Assembly: GCF_026625885.1 (NCBI RefSeq) | Contig: NZ_CP113068.1 | Span: 5,270,001-5,334,000 of the forward strand | Direction: 5' to 3' | Length of the DNA: 64,000 nt | Source of the DNA: Roseateles sp. SL47 | GTDB lineage: Bacteria > Pseudomonadota > Gammaproteobacteria > Burkholderiales > Burkholderiaceae_C | In this document: positions 1 through 27,975 of the stretch, piece by piece | Layout of the letters: every line of letters starts with the position of its first letter | Numbering within the stretch: the stretch's first letter is position 1 | Made by a program: the position numbers and the translations under genes | The notes under the pieces: generated by a model | Database searches by the model: none | Told to the model about the DNA's origin: nothing | What the model saw: the letters and a program-made list of their open reading frames with translations, nothing else

Positions 1-367
1 TGCGCATGGTCTCCAGATGGCGGGCCATGACACCGCCGATGGCTTCCATTTCGGTTTCGGAACCGAAGGCGCGCAGTCCTTGCACTTCCTCGGGCAGCAC
101 CACGTCGTCGTGCGGGATGTGCGGGATCACGAAGGAGCGCAGGTTGCGCTTGCCACGTTCACCCACCGTGCCGGGCGAACCGGGCGCCCGGGTGGGCAGC
201 AGGTTCAGACGACCGGCGTACTCCTCGACGATGATCTGCCGGGTGCGCACCGGCTTGGCCGGGAACAGGTTGAGTTGCTCCAGCCGCCCATAGCGGTTGG
301 GCAGGAGGTTGATGGCGGCCGTCAGGCTGGCCATCGAGAAGCCGGGGTTTTCAAAAGGGTTCTGCAT
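1..367 (-). CDS. Major capsid protein, lambda gpE type (3' end outside window)
   Basis: The first 122 residues of a phage major capsid protein are present; the rest lies beyond the left edge. The N-terminus reads MQNPFENPGFSMASLTAAIN, followed by a segment with NLLPNRYGRL and RQIIVEEY, the style of lambda gpE-family capsid proteins. The start is the ATG at 367 with GGAG seven bases upstream. It is the last gene visible in the head operon, directly downstream of the decoration protein, the same order as lambda D-E. It would assemble the icosahedral shell. Family assignment rests on the N-terminus and on gene order. Confidence 0.85.
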   Translation of the reverse strand, partial: MQNPFENPGFSMASLTAAINLLPNRYGRLEQLNLFPAKPVRTRQIIVEEYAGRLNLLPTRAPGSPGTVGERGKRNLRSFVIPHIPHDDVVLPEEVQGLRAFGSETEMEAIGGVMARHLETMR

Positions 368-4761: not shown

Positions 4762-6723
4762 TCAGGACAGCCAGCGGCTTTTGATCACGCGCCGACCGGT
4801 GTTGCGGTTGCCAGAAACAGCGAGGCCACCGCGTTGGGTGGCCTCGTTGATCGATTCAGTTGGTGTTTCGGGGGCTGGCGGACTGGCCAGCCCCAGTTGT
4901 CGCTCCAGTTCCCGCCAGTGGCGTTCCTCGAAACGATCCAGTCCCGCCGCCGATGCGGCCGCGCGGGCGTAGACGTAGCAGTCGAGCGCTTCGTTGCGCT
5001 CGCGCATCTTTTGCCACTCGCGCACCGGGAAGCCGTTGCGGTCGCGGCGGGTGATCAGTTGCTCCGCGCAAAGCTGCTGGATGAACTCTGCGTCGATCTT
5101 GGGCAGGTGGACGAACCCGGCAGGAAACACCGTAGTCAATCCGTCCTCGCCAACATCGGCGCTCTTGCGCAGGTTGTTGTAGAACTCCAGCTTGGCGATG
5201 CCCACCGCCACCGAGTACACCTTGATACCCCGGCGCAGCTTCTTGCCGCCCTGCGAAATATCGACGGCAGTTGGCGTCCCGATCAGGGCTGCACCGCGCG
5301 GCACACCCTTGACCGCCATCACGCGCGGATCGCGACAGGCCCGCACGAAGGCATAGGCCTCCTGCGTGGCAAAGCCGGTGTCCAGTGCAAAGCGGGCCAG
5401 CGGCATCACCGCGCCCGAGACGTGCGTCCACGATTCGGAGAGCATTTCAGCAAGGCGCTTCCATACCGTGTCGCGGGCGGTGTCGCCCATCAGCACGCGG
5501 TGCTCGACCAACCAGGATTCCTTGCCACGCCCGAAAGCCCAGACCGACGCCTCGATGCGATCCTTCTGCACGTCGGCAGCGCCCACCAGCAGCAGTCCGC
5601 CCGGCGGCACCGAGCCAATCCGGTAGTCCTCGCGGCGCTCGACCAGCCGCTGCCAGTCCGGTGCTTCACCTTCCTCGACCCAAGATTCGCCCAGCTCGGT
5701 GTTCTTGAAGGTCTTGATGGCGGCGGCCGATCCCGATTCCTTGCTGACCGCGCTCTCCCACGCAGCGGCGATCTCGCGCCAAGCACGCCAGCCCACCGGG
5801 CTGTACAGCGATGAGAGGTGAAAGCCCGCCGTCTTGCCCGTGCCATCAGTGATCATCGCGCGCCACTCGCCGTGCTCCAGCATCCACGTCTTGTGGTGCT
5901 CGGCAATCGCGGTGTCACATGACTCGCAGATGTAGGCGGCGGTCTCCGGTTGCCCTTTGTCCCAACGCAGCTGCTCGAAACGCAGCCACTGACGGTGGGA
6001 GCAATGCGGACACGGCACAAAGTAGCGACGTTGGTCACTGGCCTCGTACTCGCGCTCGATAGCCGATGCCCCTGAGATCGTCGGCGTCGAGACGATGAAG
6101 ATCTTGCGCCGCGCGAAGGTGCGCGTGCGCGCCTCGGCCAGCGAGATCGCATCGCCTTCACCCTCGACGTCCAGCGGGTAGCCATCGACCTCGTCGAGAA
6201 ACAGATAGCGCACCGGCATCGAGCGCAGACCGACCGCGCTGTTCGCACCAGTCATCACCAGCACACCGCCCCTGAATTCCTTGGCCAGGATGGTGTTGCC
6301 CGAATCCCGGCTGCGCGCCGGTGCAATCAGTTCGGCCAATGCCGATGACTCTTCGATCAGCGGATCAATCCGCTGCTTGGAGTTGCGCTTGGCCATCTCT
6401 ACTGTTGGCCACACCGCCATCATCGGGCCCGGCGCGTGGTGGATCACGTAGCCGATCCAGTTCGATCCCATCTCAGTCGCGCCAAGCTGGGCGGCTTTCA
6501 TGAACACCACGCGCTCGACCGGGGAGGTCGGCGACAGGCAATCCATGATTGCTTTCAGGTACGGCGTGCGGCTGGTGCGCCAGCGCCCCGGTTCGGCAGA
6601 TGCCTTACTGGAGAGCATCCGGTGGCGATCCGACCATTCGGACACGGTGAGCAGCGGGTCGGGCGTCAATCCTTCACGCCATGCTCGTTCGATCTCGGCA
6701 GCGCCTTCGTAGTCCATGTCCAT
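4762..6723 (-). CDS. Large terminase subunit, lambda gpA family
   Basis: This 653-residue protein (lambda gpA is 641) is the packaging ATPase and nuclease. KAAQLGATEMGSNW near residues 77-90 corresponds to the Walker-A-like site, YLFLDEVDGYP near 170-180 to Walker B, and ARFALDTGFATQEAY near 425-440 to the nuclease acidic segment. A zinc-ribbon-like pair (CPHCSHRQW and CESCD) lies near 235-270. The ATG at 6723 overlaps the small-terminase stop (TGATG); a TTG one codon earlier is less likely. It cuts concatemeric DNA and drives it through the portal. Confidence 0.95.
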   Translation of the reverse strand: MDMDYEGAAEIERAWREGLTPDPLLTVSEWSDRHRMLSSKASAEPGRWRTSRTPYLKAIMDCLSPTSPVERVVFMKAAQLGATEMGSNWIGYVIHHAPGPMMAVWPTVEMAKRNSKQRIDPLIEESSALAELIAPARSRDSGNTILAKEFRGGVLVMTGANSAVGLRSMPVRYLFLDEVDGYPLDVEGEGDAISLAEARTRTFARRKIFIVSTPTISGASAIEREYEASDQRRYFVPCPHCSHRQWLRFEQLRWDKGQPETAAYICESCDTAIAEHHKTWMLEHGEWRAMITDGTGKTAGFHLSSLYSPVGWRAWREIAAAWESAVSKESGSAAAIKTFKNTELGESWVEEGEAPDWQRLVERREDYRIGSVPPGGLLLVGAADVQKDRIEASVWAFGRGKESWLVEHRVLMGDTARDTVWKRLAEMLSESWTHVSGAVMPLARFALDTGFATQEAYAFVRACRDPRVMAVKGVPRGAALIGTPTAVDISQGGKKLRRGIKVYSVAVGIAKLEFYNNLRKSADVGEDGLTTVFPAGFVHLPKIDAEFIQQLCAEQLITRRDRNGFPVREWQKMRERNEALDCYVYARAAASAAGLDRFEERHWRELERQLGLASPPAPETPTESINEATQRGGLAVSGNRNTGRRVIKSRWLS

Positions 6724-7259
6724 CAATCCACCCTTGGGCGCATCTCGCCCAGTTCCTGCAAGTGCTCACGCACCGCCGCCTCCAGGGCGATGTGCATCGT
6801 GTGGGGATCGACACCGAGCTTGGCCGCCATCTGCGCCGAGATGCGCGCTGGCCAGTTGAGCCATGCATCGCGTTCAGAGCGCGCCAGTTTGAAAACGTGG
6901 GCGATGGCCTGTGGCCGATCCACCAGCTCGCCCTTGAGGCGGGCCAGACGCACCTTGTTGGTTTGCGCCTTGACCACCTCATTGACCGTGCGCGCCTGAA
7001 GCAAGGACGTGCCACCTGAGGGCAGCGCTGCAGGCCCATCACCCGTGGTGCCGCTGGATTCCGGTACAGCGACCTTGACGGCGCGGGTGGCAGTGCCATT
7101 GCGAGGTGCATCGGAGTTGCGTGCCCATTCGCGGTCGACGCGCTCGGCATCAATCGTTCCGTCTGCCTCCGGCGTGATCCGTCCCGCAGCGATGGCCTTG
7201 CGCACCGCCGCATCGGACACCCCTCGGTGGCGTGCGTAGGCACGAATCGAAATACCCAT
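6723..7259 (-). CDS. Small terminase subunit, Nu1-like
   Basis: This 178-residue protein starts MGISIRAYARHRGVSDAAVR, a winged helix-turn-helix that would bind the packaging cos site, followed by an EADGTIDAERVDREWARN wing. The C-terminal half is helical, as needed to contact the large subunit. It is the first gene of the packaging operon and is coupled to the large subunit by one-base overlap. The start at ATG 7259 has AAGGGGA upstream; a longer start 24 bases earlier is open but lacks a better site. Confidence 0.85.
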   Translation of the reverse strand: MGISIRAYARHRGVSDAAVRKAIAAGRITPEADGTIDAERVDREWARNSDAPRNGTATRAVKVAVPESSGTTGDGPAALPSGGTSLLQARTVNEVVKAQTNKVRLARLKGELVDRPQAIAHVFKLARSERDAWLNWPARISAQMAAKLGVDPHTMHIALEAAVREHLQELGEMRPRVD

Positions 7260-7310
7260 ATTTCCCCTTCGGGGCACCTTCAATCATTTGTTCGTCATTC
7301 CTGCGGATTG

Positions 7311-7342
7311 AGCTTGGCTTCCATCGGGAACAGCGCGTTCAT
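7311..7342 (+). promoter_or_regulatory. Repeated structured leader, copy 1
   Basis: Contains the conserved GCTTGGCTTC (7312-7321), a 9-nt variable spacer, then CAGCGCGTTCAT (7331-7342). It sits 34 bases before the ATG of the 68-residue gene at 7377. The upstream hairpin arm is poor in this copy, unlike copies 2-5. Confidence 0.65.
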
Positions 7343-7376
7343 ACGTTCGTCATCAACACCATCAAAGGACACGGAC

Positions 7377-7583
7377 ATGAGCCAGATCGAAACCATCCTC
7401 ACCCTGATCGCGCAGAAGTACCTCGGCATCGAGACACTGGAAACGCGCAGATCAGACAGCCTCGATTTCCACGACACGGCGGTCTGGTGCATCAAGGACG
7501 CACTGGAAGCCGCCTTCAAGGCTGGTGTCGAACTTGGCGCATCGATGCCGAAGGCGACGGAGTCGGAAATTGGCAACGACTGA
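7377..7583 (+). CDS. DUF6900-like small accessory protein
   Basis: A 68-residue acidic protein beginning MSQIETILTLIAQKYLGIET, with LETRRSDSLDFHDTAVW in the middle and an alpha-helical AALEAAFKAGVELG-like tail. This matches my memory of the DUF6900 family, small proteins common on plasmids, conjugative elements and prophages with no defined activity. It is the first gene of the plus-strand accessory island and is preceded by leader copy 1. The start is the only internal ATG with a purine-rich site (AAAGGA) just upstream. Function unknown; a counter-defence role is speculation from location. Confidence 0.75.
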   Translation: MSQIETILTLIAQKYLGIETLETRRSDSLDFHDTAVWCIKDALEAAFKAGVELGASMPKATESEIGND

Positions 7584-7596
7584 TCGACAGAGCAGC

Positions 7597-7643
7597 AAGC
7601 CAATCAAGAAACGCTTGGCTTCACTCCTGAACAGCGCGTTCAT
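7597..7643 (+). promoter_or_regulatory. Repeated structured leader, copy 2
   Basis: AAGCCAA (7597-7603) pairs with TTGGCTT (7615-7621) across an 11-nt loop. The 3' arm is part of the conserved GCTTGGCTTC, followed after 9 nt by CAGCGCGTTCAT (7632-7643). The next ATG (7678) is 34 bases downstream, with AAGGAG ahead of it. Confidence 0.75.
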
Positions 7644-7677
7644 CACATCGTCATCAACCACCCCGAAGGAGCAGATC

Positions 7678-8199
7678 ATGACCATCACCCAACTGACCCT
7701 GTCCCAGCATTCCGTCCTGGCCTACGCCATCCACAACACCAGCGGCAAGATCGATTGGTTTCCCGACAATCTCAAAGGCGGTGCGCGCAAGAAGGTGCTC
7801 GACGGCCTGTTAAACCGCGCACTGATCACAACGGACGGCACCGACTGGTTCGTTGCTGCCGAGGGTTACGACGCAATGGGGTGCGCTCGCCCCGCACTTG
7901 CGCCTCTGGAGGCCGACCCCGAGATCGAGGCAGCCGTGACGGCAGCCGAGGCCACGTGGGCCAAGGACGCCACTACCGAGCAGGCCAAGCCGCGCACCCG
8001 CGAGAACAGCAAGCAGGCCGAAGTGATCCGGATGCTGCAACGTCCGGAAGGCGCGACCATTGGCCAGATCTGCCTGGCCACAGGCTGGCAGGCGCATACG
8101 GTACGCGGCACCTTCGCCGGGGCCTTCAAGAAAAAGCTCGGCCTGACCATCGTTTCGGACAAGCCGCAGGGTGGCGAGCGGGTGTACCGAATTGCTTGA
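7678..8199 (+). CDS. DUF3489 domain protein
   Basis: A 173-residue protein. Residues about 1-65 hold a small helical domain (LTLSQHSVLAYAIHNTSGKI, KKVLDGLLNRALI). Residues about 110-173 form a winged-helix-like DUF3489 domain (SKQAEVIRMLQRPEGATIGQ, then TGWQAHTVRGTFAGAFKKKLGL and GGERVYRI). The fold suggests DNA binding, and family members are frequent on mobile elements. The linker is Ala/Glu/Thr-rich. Leader copy 2 precedes it, and AAGGAGCAGATC lies before the ATG. It could be a regulator of the island; that is inference. Confidence 0.85.
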   Translation: MTITQLTLSQHSVLAYAIHNTSGKIDWFPDNLKGGARKKVLDGLLNRALITTDGTDWFVAAEGYDAMGCARPALAPLEADPEIEAAVTAAEATWAKDATTEQAKPRTRENSKQAEVIRMLQRPEGATIGQICLATGWQAHTVRGTFAGAFKKKLGLTIVSDKPQGGERVYRIA

Positions 8200-8206
8200 A
8201 GAAAGA

Positions 8207-8258
8207 TGGCGAGAGAGGCCATGAATAGCTTGGCTTCTCTCGCCACCAGCGCGTTCAT
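8207..8258 (+). promoter_or_regulatory. Repeated structured leader, copy 3 (strongest hairpin)
   Basis: A 15-bp stem is formed by 8207-8221 and 8231-8245 with a 9-nt loop; fourteen pairs are Watson-Crick and one is G-U. The 3' arm carries GCTTGGCTTC (8228-8237), followed after 9 nt by CAGCGCGTTCAT (8247-8258). The ATG at 8292 is 33 bases downstream. Confidence 0.8.
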
Positions 8259-8291
8259 ACGGATGTCGCAACGATCAACCCGGAGAACGCC

Positions 8292-8492
8292 ATGAGCACC
8301 CAGCAAACCACCACCGAAACCAACTACCAGCACTTCATCGCAGAACTGACCGCGCTCACCCGCAAGTACGGGGTCGCCATACAGTCGGTCGGCGGCGTGA
8401 TCCTGGCCGACACGCAGGGCGAATTCAGCAAGGTCAGTTACCGGGCCGATATCACCAGCGGCGACCTCTACCCGGAGTTCCCGGAAGGTTGA
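8292..8492 (+). CDS. Small accessory protein of unknown function
   Basis: A 66-residue protein, MSTQQTTTETNYQHFIAELT, then RKYGVAIQSVGGVILADTQG and a short acidic end. I do not recognise the family. It looks like a compact alpha-beta domain with no membrane segment or cysteines. It is preceded by leader copy 3 and a GGAG site (CCGGAGAACGCC) before the ATG, the same arrangement as its neighbours, which is the main support for it being a real gene. Confidence 0.7.
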   Translation: MSTQQTTTETNYQHFIAELTALTRKYGVAIQSVGGVILADTQGEFSKVSYRADITSGDLYPEFPEG

Positions 8493-8501
8493 GCAGAAAG
8501 C

Positions 8502-8553
8502 TCGAGCAAGAGGCCAAGCGGCGCTTGGCTTCCTGCTTGAACAGCGCGTTCAT
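8502..8553 (+). promoter_or_regulatory. Repeated structured leader, copy 4
   Basis: Positions 8502-8519 and 8523-8540 form an 18-position stem (15 Watson-Crick, two G-U, one mismatch) with a very short GGC loop, so the innermost pairs probably open. GCTTGGCTTC is at 8523-8532 and CAGCGCGTTCAT at 8542-8553, again with a 9-nt spacer. The ATG at 8596 is 42 bases downstream. Confidence 0.8.
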
Positions 8554-8595
8554 GCTGGTGTCGTGATTGACGACGCCACACCAGGAGAAATCGCC

Positions 8596-8955
8596 ATGAG
8601 CACCATGACCATCACCATCGAACGCACCCCGCGAACCCTGCAGTTCAGCGGTCAGAGCATCCAGATCGAGGAGTTGAGCATCCGCCTGCCGTTTTCACGC
8701 AAGCCCGCCGACCTCGGAGAATTGAGCGGGAGCGATCAGCACAAGGTCTACATCACCGAAACCAAGGAACTGACCACCGCCGAATTCGACGCCTTCTCGC
8801 GCAGTCTGCTGGTGTCACGCGATTGGCTGCGCGGCAAGGGCGGTGGCAGCGGCGACGGCTACCTCTGCGTCGAGGTCACCGCACCCGGGCGTCCCTACCT
8901 CTATGTCAATCCCGAGGGCGGTGATTACGCCCGCTACGTGGCCCGTCTCGGGTGA
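8596..8955 (+). CDS. Accessory protein of unknown function
   Basis: A 119-residue protein starting MSTMTITIERTPRTLQFSGQ, probably beta-rich in the first half (SIQIEELSIRLPFSRKPADL) and with a Gly/Tyr-rich end (GRPYLYVNPEGGDYARYVAR). I do not recognise the family. The start is fixed by AGGAGAAATCGCC just upstream; an earlier in-frame start would read through leader copy 4. It shares leader and orientation with the other island genes. No catalytic motif is evident. Confidence 0.7.
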   Translation: MSTMTITIERTPRTLQFSGQSIQIEELSIRLPFSRKPADLGELSGSDQHKVYITETKELTTAEFDAFSRSLLVSRDWLRGKGGGSGDGYLCVEVTAPGRPYLYVNPEGGDYARYVARLG

Positions 8956-8960
8956 TCGAA

Positions 8961-9014
8961 ATTGATCGAGAAAGAAGCTACGAACAGCTTGGCTTCTCAA
9001 TCGAACAGCGCGTT
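8961..9014 (+). promoter_or_regulatory. Repeated structured leader, copy 5
   Basis: GATCGAGAA (8964-8972) pairs with TTCTCAATC (8994-9002) with one mismatch, enclosing AAGCT/AGCTT (8975-8979, 8986-8990). GCTTGGCTTC is at 8987-8996. After 9 nt comes CAGCGCGTT (9006-9014), here followed by ACT instead of CAT. The ATG at 9056 has AAGGAG upstream. Confidence 0.75.
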
Positions 9015-9055
9015 ACTACGGGTGTCGCAACGATCAACCCGAAGGAGAAAACGCC

Positions 9056-9418
9056 ATGACCGCCAACCCAATCCCAGCCACCCAGAACGATGCCTGGGGC
9101 TTTTGGGGCACGATGAATGAACACGCCAGCGCCGCATGGCCCTTGGCCATGAACGCCATCTCAGACTCCACTCACCAGCCCCTCGAGTCGGTGCGGATCT
9201 TCCTCGACAGTCGCCACGGACGTCACTTCGCCGACGATGTCCAGAACGGTTTGCACCAAGGCCAAGCCTTGCAGGATGCGATCAACGCCGCCACCCAACG
9301 CTGGATGGGTTGGACGATTGGTCGCCAGACCAGCAAGCAGTACGGCATCCCGCGCGGCCTGCCTTATCTGACCGGCTTTGTGATCCACTGCGAAATCTGC
9401 GACGAGATGGCCGCCTGA
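9056..9418 (+). CDS. Accessory protein of unknown function
   Basis: A 120-residue protein starting MTANPIPATQNDAWGFWGTM, with a central FLDSRHGRHFADDVQNGL segment and a C-terminal QRWMGWTIGRQTSKQYGIP. Proteins of this type occur on plasmids and integrative elements, but I know of no assigned activity. The repeated Trp and Arg/His residues suggest nucleic-acid or protein binding; this is a guess. Leader copy 5 and AAGGAG precede the ATG. It ends in a TGATG overlap with the next gene. Confidence 0.7.
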   Translation: MTANPIPATQNDAWGFWGTMNEHASAAWPLAMNAISDSTHQPLESVRIFLDSRHGRHFADDVQNGLHQGQALQDAINAATQRWMGWTIGRQTSKQYGIPRGLPYLTGFVIHCEICDEMAA

Positions 9419-9642
9419 TGAAAACGCCCGCCACCGAACGGGAGCAGGCACTGCGTTGGCTGATCGCCAACCGGCGTCCAGACGTCTCCATCGAGCAGGC
9501 CGTGCGCGTGATGTGCATAGCACTGCCTCGCGATCTCACCACCATGCAAATCCTGCGACGCATCGCCGAGGAAGAAGAGGCCAGGCAACCCGCCCGCCCA
9601 TTCAACTGGCGCACACCTCCTGGTCTGCCGCCTCGCGGATAG
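9418..9642 (+). CDS. Small helical protein, last gene of the accessory island
   Basis: A 74-residue protein (MKTPATEREQALRWLIANRR, then SIEQAVRVMCIALPRDLTTM), mostly helical with a Pro/Arg-rich tail. Its ATG overlaps the preceding stop by one base, so it is translationally coupled and has no leader hairpin of its own. Its last 41 bases overlap the end of the convergent methyltransferase gene. Not recognised; the size suggests an adaptor or inhibitor. Confidence 0.55.
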   Translation: MKTPATEREQALRWLIANRRPDVSIEQAVRVMCIALPRDLTTMQILRRIAEEEEARQPARPFNWRTPPGLPPRG

Positions 9643-10837
9643 CCTTCTGGCCGGTGAAGTCTTCCCACCGGCGCACGATTACGTCCACATATTTCGGATC
9701 GAGTTCGATCAGCCGCGCGACGCGCCCGGATTTCTCTGCAGCGATCAGCGTCGTGCCGGAACCACCAAACGGGTCAAGCACCACGTTACCGGGGCGACTC
9801 GAATTGCGGATCGCCCGCTCGACCAACTCCACCGGCTTCATCGTCGGGTGCAGGTCGTTCTTCTGCGGTTTCTTGATGTTCCACACATCACCCTGATCGC
9901 GGTCACCGCACCAGTGACGCTGTGTTCCCTCGGGCCATCCGTAGAGGATCGGCTCGTACTGGCGCTGGTAGTCGGCGCGACCGAGCGTAAAAGTGTTCTT
10001 GGCCCAGATGATGAATGTCGACCACTTACCACCGGCGGCACGGAAGGCTGCCTGCAGCACGTCCAGTTCGCTGGACGACATCGCCACGTAGATTCCGCCA
10101 CGACTATGGGCCACGGTCGGCATTAGCGCTGCCAGCAGGAAGTCATAAAAGCCGTCGCCCAAATTGTCGTTGAGGATCGCGCGATCCTTGCCGCGCATCT
10201 TGTCCTTCGCGCTGTTGGCGTAGTTCACGTTGTACGGCGGGTCGGTGAACACCATGTCCGCCTGCTCGCCTTGCAGCAATCGGTCGTAGCTCTCGGCCAC
10301 CGTCGAGTCGCCGCACAGCAAGCGGTGCTGGCCCATGATCCAGACATCGCCCGAACGCGAGATCGGTGTTTCGCCAACCTCCGGCACCGCGTCTTCGTCG
10401 GTCTGCCCGTCGTTGTTGGGCTCGTCGCCCGCCAGCAGTTCGGCCAACGCGTCAGCATCGAAGCCGGTCAGATCAATGTCGAAGCCTTCGAGTTGCAAGG
10501 ACTCCAGTTCGATGCGCAGCATCGCGTCATCCCAGCCTGCGTTCTCGGCAATTCGGTTGTCCGCGATCACCAGGGCCCGGCGCTGGGTCGGACTCAGGTG
10601 ATCGAGCACGACCACGGGCACGATCTCCAGCCCGAGCTTTTGCGCAGCGGCCAAGCGTCCATGCCCAGCGACAATGATGCCGTCACTGCCTGCGAGGATC
10701 GGGTTGGTAAATCCAAACTCGGCAATCGATGCGGCGATCTGCGCCACCTGATCATCCGAGTGTGTCCGCGCATTGCGGGCATAGGGCAGCAGTTTGGCAG
10801 TTGGCCACTGCTCGATTTTGTCGGCTAGCCAGTTCAT
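9602..10837 (-). CDS. ParB-domain DNA methyltransferase, DPPY type (adenine N6 likely)
   Basis: A 411-residue fusion. Residues about 8-110 are a ParB/Srx-like N-terminal domain (LLPYARNARTHSDDQVAQIA, then GIIVAGHGRLAAAQKLG). Residues about 155-400 are a beta-class methyltransferase with catalytic FTDPPYNVNY near 205 and the SAM-binding DPFGGSGTT near 365. DPPY points to adenine N6 methylation. No restriction enzyme is nearby, so it is an orphan, probably protecting phage DNA or regulating phage genes. Its start overlaps the second methyltransferase stop by four bases (ATGA). Confidence 0.9.
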   Translation of the reverse strand: MNWLADKIEQWPTAKLLPYARNARTHSDDQVAQIAASIAEFGFTNPILAGSDGIIVAGHGRLAAAQKLGLEIVPVVVLDHLSPTQRRALVIADNRIAENAGWDDAMLRIELESLQLEGFDIDLTGFDADALAELLAGDEPNNDGQTDEDAVPEVGETPISRSGDVWIMGQHRLLCGDSTVAESYDRLLQGEQADMVFTDPPYNVNYANSAKDKMRGKDRAILNDNLGDGFYDFLLAALMPTVAHSRGGIYVAMSSSELDVLQAAFRAAGGKWSTFIIWAKNTFTLGRADYQRQYEPILYGWPEGTQRHWCGDRDQGDVWNIKKPQKNDLHPTMKPVELVERAIRNSSRPGNVVLDPFGGSGTTLIAAEKSGRVARLIELDPKYVDVIVRRWEDFTGQKAIREAADQEVCAS

Positions 10838-12246
10838 GCAGCCACCTCCGTTTTGCGTTCAGTGGCGACCTCGTCGAAAGATTGGCCGGTGGCGATGAGC
10901 GTGACCAGCACGCCGGGGTGGTTTTGCTGAAAGCGCTTTATGGCCACGTCCACGTACTCCGGCGCAATCTCGACGCTACGACAAATGCGGCCAGTGCGTT
11001 GCGCGGCCAGCATCGTCGTGCCACTGCCTCCGAAGGGCTCGAACACGAGGTCGCCCGAATCCGTGTAGGCCTCGATGGCGAACTCCGGTAGCGCCACCGG
11101 GAAGACGGCGGGGTGGTCGATGTCCTGCCCGATCTTGCCCTTGTGGCGCATCACGCGGATCACTGAGTCGGGGATGCGGGTGTCCTGCGTCGGCTGACCC
11201 TTGTGCGTCCATCCGCTGACTTCGCCATCCTTGGCGCGCATCGCCGTGGATGAGCCATCGGCGCGCAGATGCGAATCCTGGCCAGCGTGCTTGCAGGGCA
11301 CGATCTTGTTGGGCTTGCGGGTGCTGCGATTGAAGTGGAAAACGAACTCGAAACTCGGTGCCAGTCGGCCCTGCCAGTCGCCGGGCATGCCCGGCCCCTG
11401 ATCCCAGACGTACCACGCAAAGCGCCGCCATCCTTGTTGGCGCATCCAGGACAACCAGCCGTCCCAATAGAGGATGACTTCGTTGTCGCGGTGGATCAGC
11501 CCGAGGTTGACTAGTACCTGACCGTCATCGGCCATCGGCACGTTGCCAAACACGCCACGCATCAGTGCATCCCAATCGCCAATGCCGCCGGAGGTGTAGT
11601 CGCGCTGATTGCCATACGGCGGTGAGGTGAAGCACAGACGCGCGGTGTCACCCAGCATCAGAGTAGCGACCACCGTCCGGTCGGTGGCGTCACCGCAAAT
11701 CAATCGGTGCGACCCGATGGCCCAGACATCACCCACGCGCGACACCGGCACCACCGGTGCATCAGGCACATCGTCTGCCGTATCGGGGTCGTCGGCTTCT
11801 GCTTCGTCCTGCGCCGCAGGTTCTTCGTCAGAGGGCGCGGCATCTGCCAGCAGTGCCTCGATCTCGATGTTCTCGAAGCCGGTCAGCGCCAGCTCGTAAC
11901 CCGCTTCCGAGAGTTCCGCCAATTCCAGTGTCAGCATCTCTTCGTCCCACCCTGCGTCAAGCGCCAGCCGGTTGTCGGCAATGACGAGGGCGCGCTTTTG
12001 TGCCGTGCTGAGGTGGGCCAATTCGATCACCGGCACCTGATCCAGTCCCAGCTTGCGCGCGGCCGCCAGACGACCGTGGCCCGCGATGATGCCGTTGTCA
12101 CCATCGACCAGAACCGGATTCGTCCAGCCGTACTCGACGATGCTGGCGGCGATCTTGGCAACCTGCGCTTCGGAATGCGTGCGCGGATTGCGGGCGTAGG
12201 GAATCAGCGCCTCGACCTTGCGGTACTCGACGTTGAGCGTGTTCAA
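10834..12246 (-). CDS. ParB-domain DNA methyltransferase, TSPPY type (cytosine N4 likely)
   Basis: A 470-residue protein with the same architecture as its downstream neighbour: ParB-like domain (LIPYARNPRTHSEAQVAKIA, GIIAGHGRLAAARKLG), an acidic linker rich in Asp/Glu/Ala near residues 140-170, then a methyltransferase with FTSPPYGNQ and FEPFGGSGTT. The TSPPY motif is usual in N4-cytosine and some other beta-class enzymes, so the base modified probably differs from its partner. A TTG start at 12246 with AGGA eight bases upstream is preferred, because the reading frame upstream runs through a hairpin and repeats. The two genes appear to be an old duplication. Confidence 0.87.
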   Translation of the reverse strand: MNTLNVEYRKVEALIPYARNPRTHSEAQVAKIAASIVEYGWTNPVLVDGDNGIIAGHGRLAAARKLGLDQVPVIELAHLSTAQKRALVIADNRLALDAGWDEEMLTLELAELSEAGYELALTGFENIEIEALLADAAPSDEEPAAQDEAEADDPDTADDVPDAPVVPVSRVGDVWAIGSHRLICGDATDRTVVATLMLGDTARLCFTSPPYGNQRDYTSGGIGDWDALMRGVFGNVPMADDGQVLVNLGLIHRDNEVILYWDGWLSWMRQQGWRRFAWYVWDQGPGMPGDWQGRLAPSFEFVFHFNRSTRKPNKIVPCKHAGQDSHLRADGSSTAMRAKDGEVSGWTHKGQPTQDTRIPDSVIRVMRHKGKIGQDIDHPAVFPVALPEFAIEAYTDSGDLVFEPFGGSGTTMLAAQRTGRICRSVEIAPEYVDVAIKRFQQNHPGVLVTLIATGQSFDEVATERKTEVAA

Positions 12247-12623
12247 AGTTGGTGTCCTGAAAATAGAAAACCCGCCGACGAAGCCGTGGGCGGGTTTGTG
12301 GGTTGGTGCGAACTGGCGGGGGTGCGAACTGCGAACCGTGCGAACCTTGGTTCGCACCCTGACGCTAAAAAAGCGTCGCGCTGTCGCCCCCCGCATTGGT
12401 TTTTGGCCGGGAAGGACCCGTTGATTTCCGGGCAGCTCCGTCTGCCGTCACCTCTGTCCAGAAGATAGCTGAAATACTACCCCCGACCGGCCAGTTTTGT
12501 TGCAGGGCTACCGGGTCTCGAAAAGGACAAACGAGGCAAGGCGAGGACAAACACGGCAGGCATTACCCTAAATTGCCCACGTTTTTGGAACATCCTCGTC
12601 AAGTCGTGCTGCGCGGAGCGTAT
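12247..12623 (-). other. Non-coding stretch with hairpins and GTGCGAAC repeats
   Basis: About 380 bases without a convincing gene. It holds an AACCCGCC/GGCGGGTT hairpin (12270-12297), a cluster of GTGCGAAC direct repeats ending in a perfect inverted repeat (12306-12357), and a small GACGCT/AGCGTC hairpin (12361-12376). It separates the methyltransferase pair from the replication block and may carry the promoter and control sites for the methyltransferases. From 12400 to 12620 I see nothing convincing. Confidence 0.5.
12306..12357. repeat. GTGCGAAC iterons with terminal inverted repeat
   Basis: GTGCGAAC occurs at 12306-12313, 12322-12329 and 12338-12345, with a partial TGCGAAC at 12330-12336. 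GTGCGAACC (12338-12346) and GGTTCGCAC (12349-12357) form a perfect 9-bp inverted repeat with a 2-bp centre. The arrangement looks like protein-binding sites upstream of the methyltransferase operon. Confidence 0.65.
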
Positions 12624-17614: not shown

Positions 17615-18247
17615 TTACTGAGCCCATGACGGTTTGCCCGTCACGGGTGCGCGTTGAGGTGTGGATGCCTGATACGCAGGGGCTGCCTGCGCTGGCGCGC
17701 CGGAGGTGCCACCGCCAGAGCTGCTCTTGGTGGGCACGCCCATCAACTTGGCGTAGTCGGGGTGATCGGGTTCGATCGCCAGCTTGACCACGTTGCGGTC
17801 TTGGCCCTTGGTGTCCTTCTCGATGTCCACGCGGGCCAGGAACTCCAGACCGTCCAGTTCGTGAAAGCCCTGGATGCGGCGGGCGGCGGCAGCCTGTGGG
17901 CTGTTGTCCTGCGGGTTGACGTTGCGGGCGCTGTTGAGCGCGGCGCGAAGGAAGCTGCGCCCCATCTGCCCCCAGGTCGGCCCCTTGGGGGAGTGCAGGC
18001 CGATGTTGCTCCACATCTTGCGTTTGGCATGATCGCCAGCGGTAACCACGAATTCGGCGGCGAGGTAGATAGAGCCCGTGTCGAAGGATTCGGTGGCGTA
18101 ACCGCCGCCCCAGCCCTGCGACGGATCGTCATAACCGCCGGGCTTGAGGGTCATGCGTACCGGGACGGCGGTGCCTTTGGGGATCAGTTCGAAGCCGGAC
18201 TGCTGTGATTCGGCGTCGTTGAAGTCATTCCAGTTGTTGGTGGTCAT
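17615..18247 (-). CDS. Phage recombination-module protein, possible ssDNA binder
   Basis: A 210-residue protein. Residues about 5-140 look like a compact beta-rich domain (SGFELIPKGTAVPVRMTLKP, YLAAEFVVTAGDHAKRKMWS, then LARVDIEKDTKG and NVVKLAIEPDHPDYAKLM), in the style of phage ssDNA-binding or DUF669-like proteins. The end is a disordered Gly/Ser/Ala/Pro tail ending in SWAQ, similar in composition to the tail of bacterial SSB but without the acidic tip. It lies between the RecA-like ATPase and the DUF6511/nuclease pair. ATG 18247 has CAGGAG upstream. Family assignment is tentative. Confidence 0.65.
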   Translation of the reverse strand: MTTNNWNDFNDAESQQSGFELIPKGTAVPVRMTLKPGGYDDPSQGWGGGYATESFDTGSIYLAAEFVVTAGDHAKRKMWSNIGLHSPKGPTWGQMGRSFLRAALNSARNVNPQDNSPQAAAARRIQGFHELDGLEFLARVDIEKDTKGQDRNVVKLAIEPDHPDYAKLMGVPTKSSSGGGTSGAPAQAAPAYQASTPQRAPVTGKPSWAQ

Positions 18248-18252
18248 GGCGA

Positions 18253-19092
18253 TTACTCCTGAGATTCGATGTGTGCGGCGGCGCTGGCGGGCGTGGTGGA
18301 TGTGCCCGCGCACTTGGCGATCAGCGCGCCGAGATGCGGCGGCTCCAGCAGGTCGAGACGACCGCTGCGGTCTTTGGCCGGGAAGCCGTAGGGATTGACG
18401 GTGTGTGTGACGAAGGCGCGGTAAGCGCTGCCGTCGTCGGCCTTGATCTCGGCCAGCGTCACGACCTCGTCGACGATGCCGGGCAGCTCCAGACTGGTCT
18501 TGCTGCCTTCGATCTGTGGCACGAACACCTTGCGGTTGAAGTCATCCAGTCGCTCATCGAGGATGGCGACGAACACCACATTCTTGCCCCGGGCGTGCTG
18601 CAGGTGGGTCAACGCGCCGATCATTTCCTGGCCGAGCAGGCCATAGGCAGCGCGCAGATCGGGCTTGCCGGAACGATCACTGACCGCGCCGGGCTGCGTC
18701 TTGCACCACGCGAAGCACTGCCGGGACAGCTGCGTGATCGAGTCGAGAAAGAAGGTCTGATAGCGGTCGAGCTGCGTCGGGTCGCCGAACTTCTCGATGA
18801 CGTGGTCGTAGTGCGCCTGCGAGAACGCGCTCTCCGGCGGCAGCGACTTGTCCGGGCCCGCGAGGAACACGAAGAAGTCGCGGCTCTCGGGCCACGATGC
18901 CGGACGGATGGTGTCGCCCGGCCAGTCGGCCACGGCGAGATCACCCGCCTCAATGTCGAGGAACAAGGTGGTGGTCGGGTCGAGGTCTTTGAGCCGGGTG
19001 GTCTTGCCGATGCCGGATTTGCCCAGCATCAGGAGCTTCACGCCCTTGCGTTCAGCAAGTCGCTGTTGGGCAGAGATGATTGGAAGTGACAT
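18253..19092 (-). CDS. RecA-like ATPase (AAA_24 / Sak4-type)
   Basis: A 279-residue ATPase with Walker A LMLGKSGIGKTTRL near residue 22-35, TTLFLDIEAGDLAV near 42-55, Walker-B-like TFFLDSITQLSRQ near 115, and VVFVAILDERLDD near 172. This is the phage AAA_24 family that includes Sak4-type single-strand annealing proteins. It probably acts with the neighbouring nuclease and ssDNA-binding candidate in phage recombination. The ATG at 19092 overlaps the antirepressor stop; GGAGG lies upstream. Confidence 0.85.
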   Translation of the reverse strand: MSLPIISAQQRLAERKGVKLLMLGKSGIGKTTRLKDLDPTTTLFLDIEAGDLAVADWPGDTIRPASWPESRDFFVFLAGPDKSLPPESAFSQAHYDHVIEKFGDPTQLDRYQTFFLDSITQLSRQCFAWCKTQPGAVSDRSGKPDLRAAYGLLGQEMIGALTHLQHARGKNVVFVAILDERLDDFNRKVFVPQIEGSKTSLELPGIVDEVVTLAEIKADDGSAYRAFVTHTVNPYGFPAKDRSGRLDLLEPPHLGALIAKCAGTSTTPASAAAHIESQE

Positions 19093-20346: not shown

Positions 20347-20610
20347 TCACTGGTACGCACGAGTGAAGCTGGAGTAACGCGAGACGCGCCGCTCGAAGGC
20401 TTCGATTTCGTGCAGGAGGTAGGTGACGCGGCGGCCGAGCTTGCAGTAGATCGGCCCGAGCTGTTCCTGACGCCAGCGGCGCAGGGTCTTGACGGAGAGC
20501 CCCCAGCGGATGGCGAGCTCGTTTTCGTCGAGGGCGATGCAGGTGACATCGCCCGGGTTGGGTCGGATGGGATTCCGACCGATTTGGATTGCTGGTGCTT
20601 GGGTTTGCAT
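20347..20610 (-). CDS. Helix-turn-helix protein, possible early regulator or excisionase
   Basis: An 87-residue DNA-binding protein: ENELAIRWGLSVKTLRRWRQ is a MerR/excisionase-type HTH, followed by GPIYCKLGRRVTYLLHEIEA. The ATG at 20610 has AGGAGG nine bases upstream. It is the first gene of the leftward early operon, and TTTATG-type iterons lie immediately upstream (20660-20700), so it may bind there. Confidence 0.75.
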   Translation of the reverse strand: MQTQAPAIQIGRNPIRPNPGDVTCIALDENELAIRWGLSVKTLRRWRQEQLGPIYCKLGRRVTYLLHEIEAFERRVSRYSSFTRAYQ

Positions 20611-24421: not shown

Positions 24422-24613
24422 ATGAAGAACCTCGAACTCGCATCTCCCTCAGAGATGTCCGCCAGCGCCCGCGCTGGTGAAATCACCGCCATCCTTGCGG
24501 CCGCCATCGTCCGCACCGTCGTCGCAGAAGCGCCAAAACAGAGAGAAGTTGGCCTTGGCTTCCTGCCCGACCAGCGCGTTCATACAACCCCCTATCAAAC
24601 GGAGAAGTTGTGA
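24422..24613 (+). CDS. Small protein upstream of the integrase operon
   Basis: A 63-residue protein (MKNLELASPSEMSASARAGE, then ITAILAAAIVRTVVAEAPKQ) with GGAG five bases before the ATG. Short proteins with a SASAR...EI...LAxAIVR pattern are usual just before DUF2924/recombinase pairs, in my recollection. Its last 20 or so codons run through leader copy 6, so the C-terminal sequence may be constrained by RNA structure rather than protein function, or the true role of this stretch may be the leader. Confidence 0.55.
   Translation: MKNLELASPSEMSASARAGEITAILAAAIVRTVVAEAPKQREVGLGFLPDQRVHTTPYQTEKL
24532..24583 (+). promoter_or_regulatory. Repeated structured leader, copy 6
   Basis: CCTTGGCTTC (24553-24562; one change from copies 1-5), exactly 9 nt, then CAGCGCGTTCAT (24572-24583). 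GCCAA (24532-24536) can pair with TTGGC. It is 29 bases before the DUF2924 ATG and lies inside the end of the 63-residue gene. Confidence 0.65.
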
Positions 24614-25065
24614 TGAACGAGAAACAAGCATCCGTCGCCGCACGGATCGCGGAGCTGTCGAGCCAGCCCATCGCTGAGCTGTGGCCAGTGTGGGATCGGT
24701 ACTTCAGCAGCCGCCCCATCAACCCCAACCGCGTCTTCATCGAGTCGCGCATCGCCTACAAGATGCAGGAGGAGGCCTTCGGCGGTCTGGCGCACAACAC
24801 GCGCCAGCGCCTGGAGGCCATCGGTGCCAAGCATTCCAAGATCAAGCTGCGGGCTCGCCCGCGCGACACCAACTTCGCGCCCGGCACCGTGCTGCTGCGC
24901 GAATGGGGCGACCGCGAGCACAAGGTGGCGGTCACCGCCGAAGGTCTGTTCGAGTACGAGGGCAGCACCTTCAAGAGCCTGACAGCCGTGGCCCGGCAGA
25001 TCACCGGCACGCACTGGTCGGGGCCACTGTTCTTCGGCCTGACCGGCAAGGCAGGTGCGCAATGA
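24613..25065 (+). CDS. DUF2924 protein
   Basis: A 150-residue protein: ASVAARIAELSSQPIAELWP, WDRYFSSRPINPNRVFIESR, then a beta-rich C-terminal part (GTVLLREWGDREHKVAVTAE, FEYEGSTFKSLTAVARQITG, WSGPLFFGL). This is the DUF2924 family, almost always encoded next to large serine recombinases, whose DNA-binding accessory it may be. ATG 24613 follows an AACGGAGAAGTTGTG stretch; the stop overlaps the recombinase start (ATGA). Confidence 0.9.
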   Translation: MNEKQASVAARIAELSSQPIAELWPVWDRYFSSRPINPNRVFIESRIAYKMQEEAFGGLAHNTRQRLEAIGAKHSKIKLRARPRDTNFAPGTVLLREWGDREHKVAVTAEGLFEYEGSTFKSLTAVARQITGTHWSGPLFFGLTGKAGAQ

Positions 25066-26450
25066 GCGACGCCACCCAAATCGCCTCTCCCAAGGCGCGC
25101 AAACGCTGCGCCGTCTACTGCCGGGTGTCGTCGGACGAGCGCCTTGACCAAGAGTTCAACTCCATCGACGCGCAGAAGGAGGCTGGCCACGCCTACGTCG
25201 CCAGCCAACGCGCAGAAGGATGGATTCCGGTGGCCGACGACTACGACGACCCCGGCTTCTCCGGCGGCAACACGGATCGTCCCGGGCTGAAACGCCTGAT
25301 GGCCGACATCGAGCGCGGCCAGATCGACATCGTGGTGGTCTACAAGATTGACCGCCTGACGCGCAGCCTTGCCGACTTCTCCAAGATGGTCGAGGTGTTC
25401 GAGCGCCAGGGCGTGTCGTTCGTGTCGGTCACGCAGCAGTTCAACACCACCACCTCGATGGGACGGCTGATGCTCAACGTGCTGCTGTCCTTCGCCCAGT
25501 TCGAGCGCGAGGTCACCGGCGAGCGCATCCGCGACAAGATCGCCGCCAGCAAGCGCAAAGGGATGTGGATGGGTGGCGTGCCGCCGCTCGGCTTCGACGT
25601 GGAGAACCGTCTGCTGGTCATCAACGACACCGAGGCGGCGGTGGTGCGGCGCATCTTTGAGGAGATGCTGACCATCGGCTCGCCCACCCAGATTGCCGCC
25701 AACCTGACGCTTGATGGCATTACCACCAAGGCGTGGACGACACAGGACGGTCAGACAAGGGCAGGCACGCGCATCGACAAGAAGTACCTGCACAAGCTGC
25801 TGCGCAACCGCATCTACCTCGGGGAGTTGTCGCACAAGGGCAGTTGGTACCCGGGCGTGCATCAAGCCATCATCGATCCCGGACTGTGGGGACGGGTTCA
25901 CGAAGTGCTGGCCAAGGACGGTCACACCCGGTCGGTGGAAACCAAGATCAGGTCGCGCACCGACGCCTTGCTGCGCGGCCTGCTGTACGCGCCCTCGGGC
26001 GAGCGGATGTACCCGACCTACTCGCGCAAGAACGGGCGCAAGTACCACTACTACGTGTCCAAGTCGGAAGCGCGGTTCGGCGCGCCGGGAAAGGGCTACG
26101 AGCGCCTGCCCGCGCCGGAGATCGAAGGGGCGGTGGTCGCCCAGATCCGAACGGTGCTGACCAGCCCGGAAACGGTGGCGTCGGTGGTTCGGCACATCCA
26201 ACGCAACGGGGCCCAGATCGACGAGGCCACCACCGTGATGGCGATGGGACGGCTCAACAACGTGTGGGATCAACTGTTCCCCGTCGAGCGCCACCGCATC
26301 GCCAATCTGATGATCGAGCGCATCGACCTCGTCCACGCAGGCGAGGTGCAGGGGATCAAGGTGAAGTGGCGTGAGGTGGGTTGGAACGCGCTCATCGCGG
26401 AGTTCGCCCCGAACAGCATCGGTGCCGAACTGCTGGAGGTCGAAGTCTGA
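25062..26450 (+). CDS. Large serine recombinase (prophage integrase)
   Basis: A 462-residue serine recombinase. The resolvase domain starts RCAVYCRVSSDERLDQEFNS with the catalytic Ser in CRVSS, and contains VVVYKIDRLTRSLADFSKMV and LLSFAQFEREVTGERIRDKI. The recombinase domain (about 165-290) has KRKGMWMGGVPPLGFDVE and YLHKLLRNRIYLGELSHKGS. The C-terminal part has only weak zinc-binding residues, unlike many phage integrases. It would integrate and excise this prophage. It is translationally coupled to DUF2924 and to the small proteins downstream. Confidence 0.93.
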   Translation: MSDATQIASPKARKRCAVYCRVSSDERLDQEFNSIDAQKEAGHAYVASQRAEGWIPVADDYDDPGFSGGNTDRPGLKRLMADIERGQIDIVVVYKIDRLTRSLADFSKMVEVFERQGVSFVSVTQQFNTTTSMGRLMLNVLLSFAQFEREVTGERIRDKIAASKRKGMWMGGVPPLGFDVENRLLVINDTEAAVVRRIFEEMLTIGSPTQIAANLTLDGITTKAWTTQDGQTRAGTRIDKKYLHKLLRNRIYLGELSHKGSWYPGVHQAIIDPGLWGRVHEVLAKDGHTRSVETKIRSRTDALLRGLLYAPSGERMYPTYSRKNGRKYHYYVSKSEARFGAPGKGYERLPAPEIEGAVVAQIRTVLTSPETVASVVRHIQRNGAQIDEATTVMAMGRLNNVWDQLFPVERHRIANLMIERIDLVHAGEVQGIKVKWREVGWNALIAEFAPNSIGAELLEVEV

Positions 26451-26821
26451 TGGACGAGTCGATGGAAACCTTTGTGCCACTAACGTTCCGCCGCCGGGGC
26501 GTCCAGCGCGTGGCTGCCGACGACCGGCACGTCCACGACGTGACCCTGCTCGACGGTGTGGCACGCGCCTTCTACTGGCAGCACCTGCTGGACACCGGCG
26601 CGATGCAAAGCGGGTCGGCCATCGCCCGTGCCGAGAAACTGCACCACTCGGTGGTCAACGAACTGCTGCGCCTGACCCTGCTGGCCCCCGACATCATTGA
26701 GCAATTCATGGCGGGCAAGCAGCCACGTCGGCTGACGCTGATGTGGTTTCAGCGAAACCGCCTAATGGTCGACTGGCACGCCCAGCGCCAGCTCATGGCC
26801 AGTTTTGAGGAGGAGGCATGA
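26450..26821 (+). CDS. Small HTH-like protein A, paralogue pair next to integrase
   Basis: A 123-residue protein beginning MDESMETFVPLTFRRRGVQR. Residues about 40-105 (ARAFYWQHLLDTGAMQSGSA, RAEKLHHSVVNELLRLTLLA, DIIEQFMAGKQPRRLTLMWF) resemble the ParB/KorB-type HTH. It overlaps the recombinase stop by one base (TGATG). The neighbouring protein B is a divergent copy of it. Position and HTH make it a candidate recombination directionality factor or integrase regulator; this is inference. Confidence 0.7.
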   Translation: MDESMETFVPLTFRRRGVQRVAADDRHVHDVTLLDGVARAFYWQHLLDTGAMQSGSAIARAEKLHHSVVNELLRLTLLAPDIIEQFMAGKQPRRLTLMWFQRNRLMVDWHAQRQLMASFEEEA

Positions 26822-27297
26822 GCAAGAAGCATTGCGGCCACGCCAAGGGCGACCCGGTGACCTATCAGACGCCGCTGCCCGCTGGCGGCGTGCAGATGGA
26901 AACCTTCCTGCCCTGGACACTGGTGCGCCGGGGCCTGAAAAAGCAGGTCATCACGCCGCTGGACGCGCCGCAGGAGTTCCTGGACGAGGCCCGCCGTGAG
27001 CGGCAGGTGCGCGAGATGGCGCAGGACACCCCCTTGATGCGGGCGCTCGGCCTCGCGCACCACTGGCAGCGCCTGCTGGACGAAGGACGGTTCAGTTCGA
27101 TGACCGAGATCGCGGCGGCCGAAGGCATCGACCTCGGCCAAGCGAGCAAGATGAGCCGACTGGCACAACTGGCCCCCGACTTGATCGAAGCCATCGCCCT
27201 GGGACGCCTCAATGTGGGCGTCAGCCAGTTGCTGCGCGGCAGGTTGTCGGCGTCCTGGCTGGCCCAACGTGAGGCGCTAGTGGCAGGCTGGCGCTGA
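26818..27297 (+). CDS. Small HTH-like protein B, paralogue pair next to integrase
   Basis: A 159-residue protein that shares with protein A the METFLPWTLVRRG start (METFVPLTFRRRG in A) and the ALGLAHHWQRLLDEGRFSSM, AAAEGIDLGQASKMSRLAQL, APDLIEAIALGRLNVGVSQL module. A 26-residue N-terminal extension carries Cys and His. ATGA overlap with A indicates coupling. It is the last phage gene before the terminator. Confidence 0.7.
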   Translation: MSKKHCGHAKGDPVTYQTPLPAGGVQMETFLPWTLVRRGLKKQVITPLDAPQEFLDEARRERQVREMAQDTPLMRALGLAHHWQRLLDEGRFSSMTEIAAAEGIDLGQASKMSRLAQLAPDLIEAIALGRLNVGVSQLLRGRLSASWLAQREALVAGWR

Positions 27298-27601: not shown

Positions 27602-27975
27602 TGGTGGAGGCGGGGGGAATTGAACCCCCGTCCGCAAGCCGTCCACGTACAGTTCTACATGCGTAGCTGTCTGATTTGGATCTCGCCCATGGAGTCGCGC
27701 AGCAGCACGCTACCCCACAAGCCAGCACCCTAAATCTCACCTGTGCCCAAGGTGCCCGGACACAAGCCAGCCTATGTAATTAACCTCTCAATCATCACCT
27801 TGCGGATCAGACCCGGCCCATAGGCCAACCGTTGAGAGGCTCACGCGCAATTAAGCGGCGAGTGCGAACGTAGAGTCGTTTGCAGTTACTGTGTTTCCAG
27901 GTGGATTTACGAGGATACTGGCCCTCGGCATGCCCTGCGACGCATCAGAACCCACGTCGAAACCAGGTCGCCCCC
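27602..27975 (-). ncRNA. ssrA: tmRNA (transfer-messenger RNA)
   Basis: The 5' end GGGGGCG pairs with CGCCTCC before the encoded CCA at the other end (27602-27605), forming the tRNA-like acceptor stem. The TTCAA of the T-arm lies near 27620. The tag reading frame, GCA to stop TAA at 27883-27851, encodes ANDSTFALAA, a normal betaproteobacterial-type degradation tag. The molecule rescues stalled ribosomes with SmpB. It appears intact, so the adjacent prophage has not broken it. Confidence 0.95.

Follow-up and report, generated by a model that had tools for sequence, protein, structure and literature searches.

The radC RNA motif occurs before genes of mobile elements. A different mark stands before genes of Cluster K mycobacteriophages, the SAS/ESAS repeats. 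In the part of the description that was available (PMC3203893), SAS is a 13 bp sequence, GGGATAGGAGCCC, situated at the ribosome site, with typically 3-7 bp between it and the start; it is asymmetric, nearly always keeps the same orientation, and precedes a wide variety of non-structural phage genes that are unrelated to each other. Neither of the two host genomes named contains an exact copy, and the function of SAS was then not known. About half of its copies have inverted repeats just upstream, for which the same part of the paper reports little hairpin support. Here we describe a repeat of comparable behaviour in a stretch of 64,000 nt of Roseateles sp. SL47 (GCF_026625885.1, NZ_CP113068.1, positions 5,270,001-5,334,000 of the forward strand), called the window below and used for all coordinates unless another sequence is named. 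The element is bipartite, TTGGCTTY-N9-CAGCGCGTT(CAT or ACT), where N9 stands for nine variable bases, and its six copies, exact or nearly so and all on the plus strand, precede accessory genes of a prophage.

As far as the available part of PMC3203893 goes, SAS/ESAS is the nearest known kind by phenomenon. The likeness lies in the single orientation, the many unrelated phage genes, the absence elsewhere in the host (here the own genome only) and the inverted repeats upstream of a subset of copies (here stems of at least 5 pairs in 23 of 24 copies at gene junctions). The present element differs in its two-part build, in its sequence, in its place 29-42 nt before the ATG in the window, and in that a stem at a junction is more stable with the N9 of its own copy than with a swapped one. 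With the sites of AlpA and phage Q antitermination it shares, by the parts of PMC7969949 and PMC9371919 at hand, the character of a promoter-embedded element with a specific regulator; however, the AlpA site GGGACG lies between the -35 and -10 boxes (PMC9371919, same part), and that stretch is here the mostly variable N9. The 17-bp repeats of Cluster O mycobacteriophages also have many conserved copies per phage genome, but by the available part of PMC4351075 they have dyad symmetry and no close tie to gene starts.

The likeness to the radC RNA motif is one of position before mobile-element genes, and an earlier note on this DNA had suggested that the repeat may belong to that class. This suggestion did not survive comparison with the Rfam models. 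Only the tmRNA was matched in the window, and a search of 7200-9300 at E<=10 gave no radC; the own genome has 0 matches to RF01754, and 20 other motif-bearing loci gave no Rfam match at gathering score. Neither TTGGCTTC nor CAGCGCGTT is present at five radC loci of two congeners (four in G002 that pass the cut-off and one in G006 that falls short of it). The four in G002 lie within 40 kb of one contig (L387, L389-L391). No description of the element was found in the open-access literature, judged mostly by titles: the papers containing CAGCGCGTTCAT are both on other subjects by title, and the titles looked at for GCTTGGCTTC include none on this subject.

Anatomy, placement and spread of the element

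The window was scanned with the pattern GCTTGGCTTC-N9-CAGCGCGTTCAT, allowing at most three mismatches and counting the leading GC in the start coordinates. Exactly six sites were found, all of them on the plus strand, while dinucleotide shuffles of the window gave a mean of 0.00 and a largest count of 0. Copies 1 to 4 (7312..7342, 7613..7643, 8228..8258 and 8523..8553) match exactly; copy 5 (8987..9017) is the ACT variant, with two mismatches to the CAT form, and copy 6 (24553..24583) has one mismatch. ACT is also a recurrent variant of the CAT end in the wider set of copies. The repeat noticed earlier is thus confirmed as real, with its six copies, its exact spacing of nine variable bases and the ACT end of copy 5; only the position given for copy 6, 24532, has to be corrected to 24553. 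The further stretch said to be common to copies 3 and 5 is also there, as GTCGCAACGATCAACCC. In the own genome (6.39 Mb) the six window sites are the only exact copies, without a seventh, and the remaining 27 pattern matches carry two or three mismatches.

From the CAT or ACT end to the ATG there are 34, 34, 33, 42, 38 and 29 nt in copies 1 to 6, which is the range of 29 to 42 bases reported before. The stop codon of the preceding gene sits 29-32 nt before copies 2-5, and copy 1 is the first of the array, 34 nt before the ATG at 7377. Is this placement general? Of 420 unique copies, 401 have a ribosome-site-like sequence and an open reading frame (ORF) within 80 nt downstream; the same was found for 81 on the opposite side and for 135 when positions were taken at random. 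Of the 401, 247 stand at d = 34-36, and eight copies in this count are at d = 13. Over gaps from 0 to 30, all 388 of 388 pairs of halves were nine bases apart, as were 440 of 466 pairs when shorter halves were used; the loci had already been chosen by gap 9.

At junctions the length from stop codon to motif is near-constant, with a mode of 30 nt. This regularity, and the occurrence of the same repeat between unrelated genes, might suggest a recombination seam, kept as a cassette boundary for the exchange of modules. However, the single orientation and the strict distance to the ATG speak against a seam, the core is invariant while N9 and the flanks vary freely, and some copies lie within a small ORF. 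We consider a seam very improbable.

The element is widespread. A scan of viral contigs gave at least 120 stretches with it, and a scan of bacterial genomes at least 118 loci, in 84 of which the copy precedes a gene of a recurrent family; these 84 include Nitrospira defluvii (L179), an alphaproteobacterial metagenome-assembled genome (L187) and, by their titles, many Beta- and Gammaproteobacteria. The genome of Thiomonas bhubaneswarensis DSM 18181 has four copies at a single locus. Lone matches in some distant groups (L141, L196, L212, L217), which have no such downstream gene, look like chance. In a sample of 399 genomes from the host's order, 25 carry the element and one carries the reversed pattern. 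From 370 unique instances, 340 have a downstream start and 336 a protein of at least 40 aa. By single linkage these 336 proteins form 29 families, 18 with at least two members and 11 single, and the five largest account for 275 copies; at least two of the single proteins (L176, L186) are chance and were dropped from the set of 120 copies used below. The element is a widespread signal before unrelated small prophage genes, mostly in Proteobacteria. A relative, Acidithiobacillus phage AcaML1, has the gene order of the window; the 40 kb that were read contain four copies, of which one has TTT. The available parts of two papers on this phage (PMC3826726, PMC5567305) mention no such repeat. The TTT copy, at 18193 of AcaML1 (L420), lies inside the annotated gp33 (17986-18447, other strand), and the annotation may be doubtful there.

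A putative start signal for transcription

In the 120 non-redundant copies the letters of the pattern are fixed by the selection, and the other positions are the informative ones. N9 is mostly variable, though its last letters are partly conserved, with A15 in 82% and A16 in 88% of copies. Behind the element, Y34 is kept in 98%, R35 in 83%, Y36 in 98% and C37 in 79%, and the leader that follows is A/C-rich and T-poor. Read in the register of a promoter, these four positions are -1, +1, +2 and +3, behind two boxes at 17-bp spacing.

What could such an element be for? The best explanation, though one that we hold with slightly more doubt than belief, is that the invariant element is a DNA signal for transcription start, either an unusual promoter or the site of a regulator over a promoter. 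TTGGCT would then be at -35, and GTTCAT or GTTACT would occupy -12 to -7, the two being separated by 17 bp. The first transcribed base, in most copies a purine, would lie about 7 nt further on. The resulting 5' untranslated region would be about 27-30 nt long and include the ribosome site. In the array every small gene would be a transcription unit of its own, and the operon of DUF2924 and the recombinase would have an internal start of the same kind. The site might be read by a phage or a host factor. In favour of this explanation are the fixed gap between the halves, the conserved YRYC, the strict placement before ORFs, the letters retained in distant DUF2924 leaders, the constancy of TTGGCTTC in buried and unburied copies alike, and the lack of a T-rich tail behind the hairpin. 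Between genes of the array, N9 and TTGGCTTC together form the 3' arm of a hairpin, and the matching 5' arm is just past the preceding stop codon; this hairpin may serve the message before it as a cap or protection of its 3' end.

Hairpins at gene junctions

Copies were divided by position. A junction copy is one preceded, at 20-36 nt, by the stop codon of a gene in the same direction (24 non-redundant of 75); the other groups are the first copies of arrays (15 non-redundant of 54) and the copies before DUF2924 genes (9 of 51). The earlier note had described a distal arm pairing with the repeat in copies 2-5. In 74-nt folds this is clear for copy 3, where a stem of 15 bp at 8207..8245 has TGGCTTC and N9 as its 3' arm (minimum free energy -32.3 kcal/mol), and for copy 4, with a long stem at 8502..8540 (-32.1 kcal/mol), and is weaker for copy 5 (8966..9004, -19.0 kcal/mol). 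It is less secure for copy 2, where a hairpin at 7584..7631 is possible between AAGCCAA and TTGGCTT, with 30 nt from stop to motif: the AAGCCAA arm is present, but the best fold is another one, and the hairpin is seen in a related locus (L039). Copy 1 folds without such a stem. Copy 6 has a different, interrupted stem, in which GCTT and part of N9 pair with upstream letters (-21.9).

A stem of at least 5 pairs, in a few cases a weak one, was found in 23 of the 24 non-redundant junction copies. Their mean folding energy is -18.0 kcal/mol, against -16.1 (standard deviation 0.39) with swapped N9 and -9.4 with shuffled upstream arms, and none of 200 swap rounds reached a mean as low. For the first-of-array copies the z-scores are -1.0 against N9 swaps and -4.3 against shuffled arms, and for the DUF2924 copies -0.7 and -1.6. 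With 7-8 of its 8 bases paired upstream, TTGGCTTC is buried in 71% of junction copies, 27% of first-of-array copies and 33% of DUF2924 copies; looser redundancy cuts gave 75-81%, 13-17% and 26-31%. Sorted by downstream family, the gain in energy over N9 swaps was seen for families 1, 2 and 4 (z -2.3, -2.2 and -3.6) and was absent from families 0 and 3.

Is there, then, one RNA structure for the whole set? The answer from a wide alignment is no: for 104 sequences RNAalifold gave 3 pairs, zero covariation and no common hairpin, and pairing in a fixed register was not above swaps in most families, with a best z of 2.6 among 45 tests. A common hairpin was therefore rejected for the whole set and retained for the junction copies. 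The previous argument, that the stems change their letters and keep their pairing, stands for the junctions, where they still fold, and does not extend to a feature shared by all copies. Since TTGGCTTC is invariant both where it is buried and where it is mostly unburied, we infer a DNA site and not one RNA fold, and the hairpin would be a separate RNA feature of the preceding message.

An intrinsic terminator on the coding strand was also considered and rejected: 0 of 23 junction hairpins have five or more T in 8 nt. The 8 nt on the 5' side of the junction hairpin contain 3.78 A on average, and at least five A in 7 of 23. Such purine-rich flanks make some hairpins terminator-like for the minus strand. 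Six terminator-like sites lie in 7230-9700, all on the minus strand, where 2.2 were expected, but the leaders themselves are also A-rich, so that a terminator of the minus strand is no more than possible.

Another explanation is that of an RNA leader. A protein or small RNA would recognise the invariant letters within the mRNA and thereby control the translation or stability of each gene, and the junction hairpin would belong to the same element. This explanation accords with the junction hairpins that were more stable than in all swap rounds, with N9 pairing above swaps in first-of-array copies, with the energy of all 121 copies pooled (-17.84 against -16.93 swapped, standard deviation 0.15), with the strict strand and distance to the ribosome site, and with the A/C-rich, T-poor leader. 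Against these stand the lack of a common structure for all copies together and the conservation of TTGGCTTC in first-of-array and DUF2924 copies, where it is mostly unburied. Moreover, 46 of the 51 DUF2924 copies are in frame with an upstream ATG, pairing with 16S rRNA did not go beyond shuffles, and no Rfam family was matched. An RNA leader is possible, but on the whole unlikely.

Several observations, in turn, speak against a start signal for transcription. The sigma-70 consensus (TTGACA-16..18-TATAAT, A at -11) has 0 sites in 7230-9700, and the proposed -10 box lacks the A at -11. The predicted start region of copy 6 is CCCC and not YRYC. About 17 letters are conserved, which is stricter than in ordinary promoters. 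Among the candidates no trans-acting factor was identified, the HTH_17-like protein being present in only 15 of 18 elements and DUF2924 absent from 4 of 25 motif genomes. The A/C-rich leader with its tight distance to the ATG would suit a translational element too. Nor is the split in folding between junction copies and the others clean: in junction copies the number of N9 pairs, in contrast to the energy, rises only mildly (4.04 against 3.46 when swapped, 14 of 200 rounds as high), and in first-of-array copies N9 has 3.80 upstream pairs against 2.89 (13 of 200), where looser redundancy cuts left 0 of 200 rounds as high. This N9 pairing in first-of-array copies and the interrupted stem of copy 6 speak somewhat against the promoter and for the RNA leader.

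Leaders of DUF2924 genes

The earlier note did not mention that copy 6 lies inside the 3' end of an ORF of 63 codons (24422..24613, plus strand), whose C-terminal codons LGFLPDQRVH are written by the copy. How far is the element constrained in such a place? From the order sample 30 DUF2924 leaders were read and 28 aligned; L482 and L483 were dropped as they showed no match at the expected place, the element of L482 sitting further upstream. Nine of the aligned DUF2924 genes are at least 74% identical to that of the window, and the remaining 19 are below 60%. In 16 of these 19 distant leaders two or more of 22 compared letters differ, for example CTTGGCTTC..CAGCGCGTGAAT or CTTGCTATT..CGAAGCGTTCAT, and with few exceptions the 19 retain CTTG, GCGT and the final T: C-1, T0, T1 and G2 are kept in 19, 19, 18 and 19 of them, and G21, C22, G23, T24 and T28 in 19, 19, 17, 19 and 19.

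DUF2924 leaders lie in the 3' end of a small ORF, and their potentially silent codon positions are mostly unchanged: CTT stands in 27 of the 28 rows, whereas among the encoded residues R alternates with S. Because silent positions mostly stay the same while encoded residues change, the constraint is on letters of DNA or RNA. This bears on the idea of a coding remnant, by which the tail of the small ORF ahead of DUF2924, LGFxxxQRVH, was duplicated to give the repeat. The repeat is in frame in the DUF2924 family, and most diverged rows read L-x-x-x3-x-[RS]-V. The nearly frozen codons are against it, however, as is the alternation of CAT and ACT, and in the arrays the frame is often without an upstream start codon (42 of 76, 28 of 64, 39 of 59 and 15 of 25 copies in four families), for which reason a peptide conserved in all copies was rejected there. 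A coding remnant can hardly be the explanation.

Candidate readers of the site

That one family of cis-elements would stand before both the accessory genes and the integrase operon had been proposed from the window alone. Copy 6 bears this out, and so does the company that the element keeps. In 16 of 18 motif-bearing element regions the fetched DNA contains DUF2924, the recombinase and a pair of small paralogues, gp2 and gp1; the other two (G058b, G103) have their DUF2924 and gp1 matches beyond it, at distances of about 10 kb from the fetched stretch and about 47 kb from the array, so that DUF2924 and gp1 are with or near the element in 18 of 18. In the order sample DUF2924 (E <1e-20) is in 21 of the 25 motif genomes against 37 of 399 overall. 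The four without it include G167, which is probably a chance match, and G260 and G353, which are also without a gp1 match. Among 20 records reached via motif loci DUF2924 is in 14, and 19 of the 20 are viral contigs and maybe fragments.

This association invites the idea of a loading or operator site, at which a phage regulator (an AlpA- or Q-like antiterminator, an HTH_17-like protein, or gp1/gp2) bound over a weak promoter would switch the array and the integrase operon jointly. An HTH_17-like protein was found in 15 of the 18 elements, one of the other three being only partly fetched, both copies of G260 precede HTH_17-like genes, and the module of DUF2924 and gp1 accompanies all 18. On the other side, no HTH_17-like protein was found in the stretches fetched of G084 and G327, G260 and G353 have neither DUF2924 nor gp1, array copies keep the canonical form in G135, G232 and G165, whose integrase copies have diverged, and the AlpA site of PMC9371919, in the part at hand, occupies the place where this element is free. 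We regard such a site as rather improbable. DUF2924 or gp1 as the sole reader is not supported either, given the genomes that lack them and the diverged integrase copies.

In the window one candidate reader is an AlpA/excisionase-like, HTH_17-like protein (20350..20610, minus strand), a homologue of AcaML1 gp9, which itself scores under the Pfam cut-off for HTH_17. The structure model of gp1 has a predicted local distance difference test (pLDDT) value of 70, and its best Foldseek match, Spo0J, is not significant (E 0.27); the modelled resemblance of gp1 to a helix-turn-helix of ParB/Spo0J type is at most weak. There are 2058 homologues of gp1 at E<=0.001, with no Pfam domain among the 120 listed, and some sources name its relatives LacI regulators. 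The model of DUF2924 was too poor for use (pLDDT 63).

Genes next to the copies

Copies 1-5 precede five small genes, which form an island between the terminase genes (4762-7283, minus strand) and two methylase genes (9602-12396, minus strand), both named by homology to phage AcaML1. The island (7284-9650, plus strand) runs opposite to the minus-strand phage genes that flank it on both sides. Its genes, all on the plus strand, are DUF6900 after copy 1 (7377..7583, 68 aa; PF21841, E 1.4e-23), DUF3489/phrog_10315 after copy 2 (7678..8199, 173 aa; PF11994, E 1.4e-31, and phrog_10315, E 5.2e-73), a gene of 66 aa after copy 3 (8292..8492) that has no family match and is homologous to AcaML1 gp27 (77%), a gene of 119 aa after copy 4 (8596..8955) with a weak match to phrog_21303 (E 3.1e-5), and phrog_8020 after copy 5 (9056..9418, 120 aa; E 2e-49). 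The two genes at 9602-12396, which adjoin the array, are a tandem pair of homologous ParB-like/DNA methylase genes, and homologues of each are present in AcaML1 (gp24, gp25) as well as in further phages with arrays.

Copy 6 precedes an operon on the plus strand that starts with DUF2924 (24613..25065, 150 aa; PF11149, E 9.7e-51) and continues with the serine recombinase (25062..26450; PF00239, E 4.7e-42), gp2 (26447..26821), which is paralogous to gp1 by alignment, and gp1 (26818..27297; phrog_14161). This recombinase end of the prophage adjoins the gene of the transfer-messenger RNA (tmRNA; 27602-27975, minus strand), and the prophage may be integrated at this gene.

Significance

The element marks gene starts in the mobile elements of 25 of 399 sampled genomes within one bacterial order. 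Uncharacterised accessory genes, among them DUF6900, DUF3489, DUF2924 and phrog_8020, would make up its regulon. A wider scenario, which is speculative and which we think unlikely in its full form, is a class of mobile-element promoters in phages of several bacterial classes, served by an unrecognised specificity factor other than a standard sigma, with accessory genes traded among phages as single-gene units; each unit would consist of a promoter, a gene and the 5' half of a hairpin, to be completed by the promoter of the next unit. A start signal that overlaps the hairpin of the previous gene would be a compact way of chaining such units. If the element is indeed a promoter class, its reader would be a new regulator, and the site would predict which small genes switch on together.

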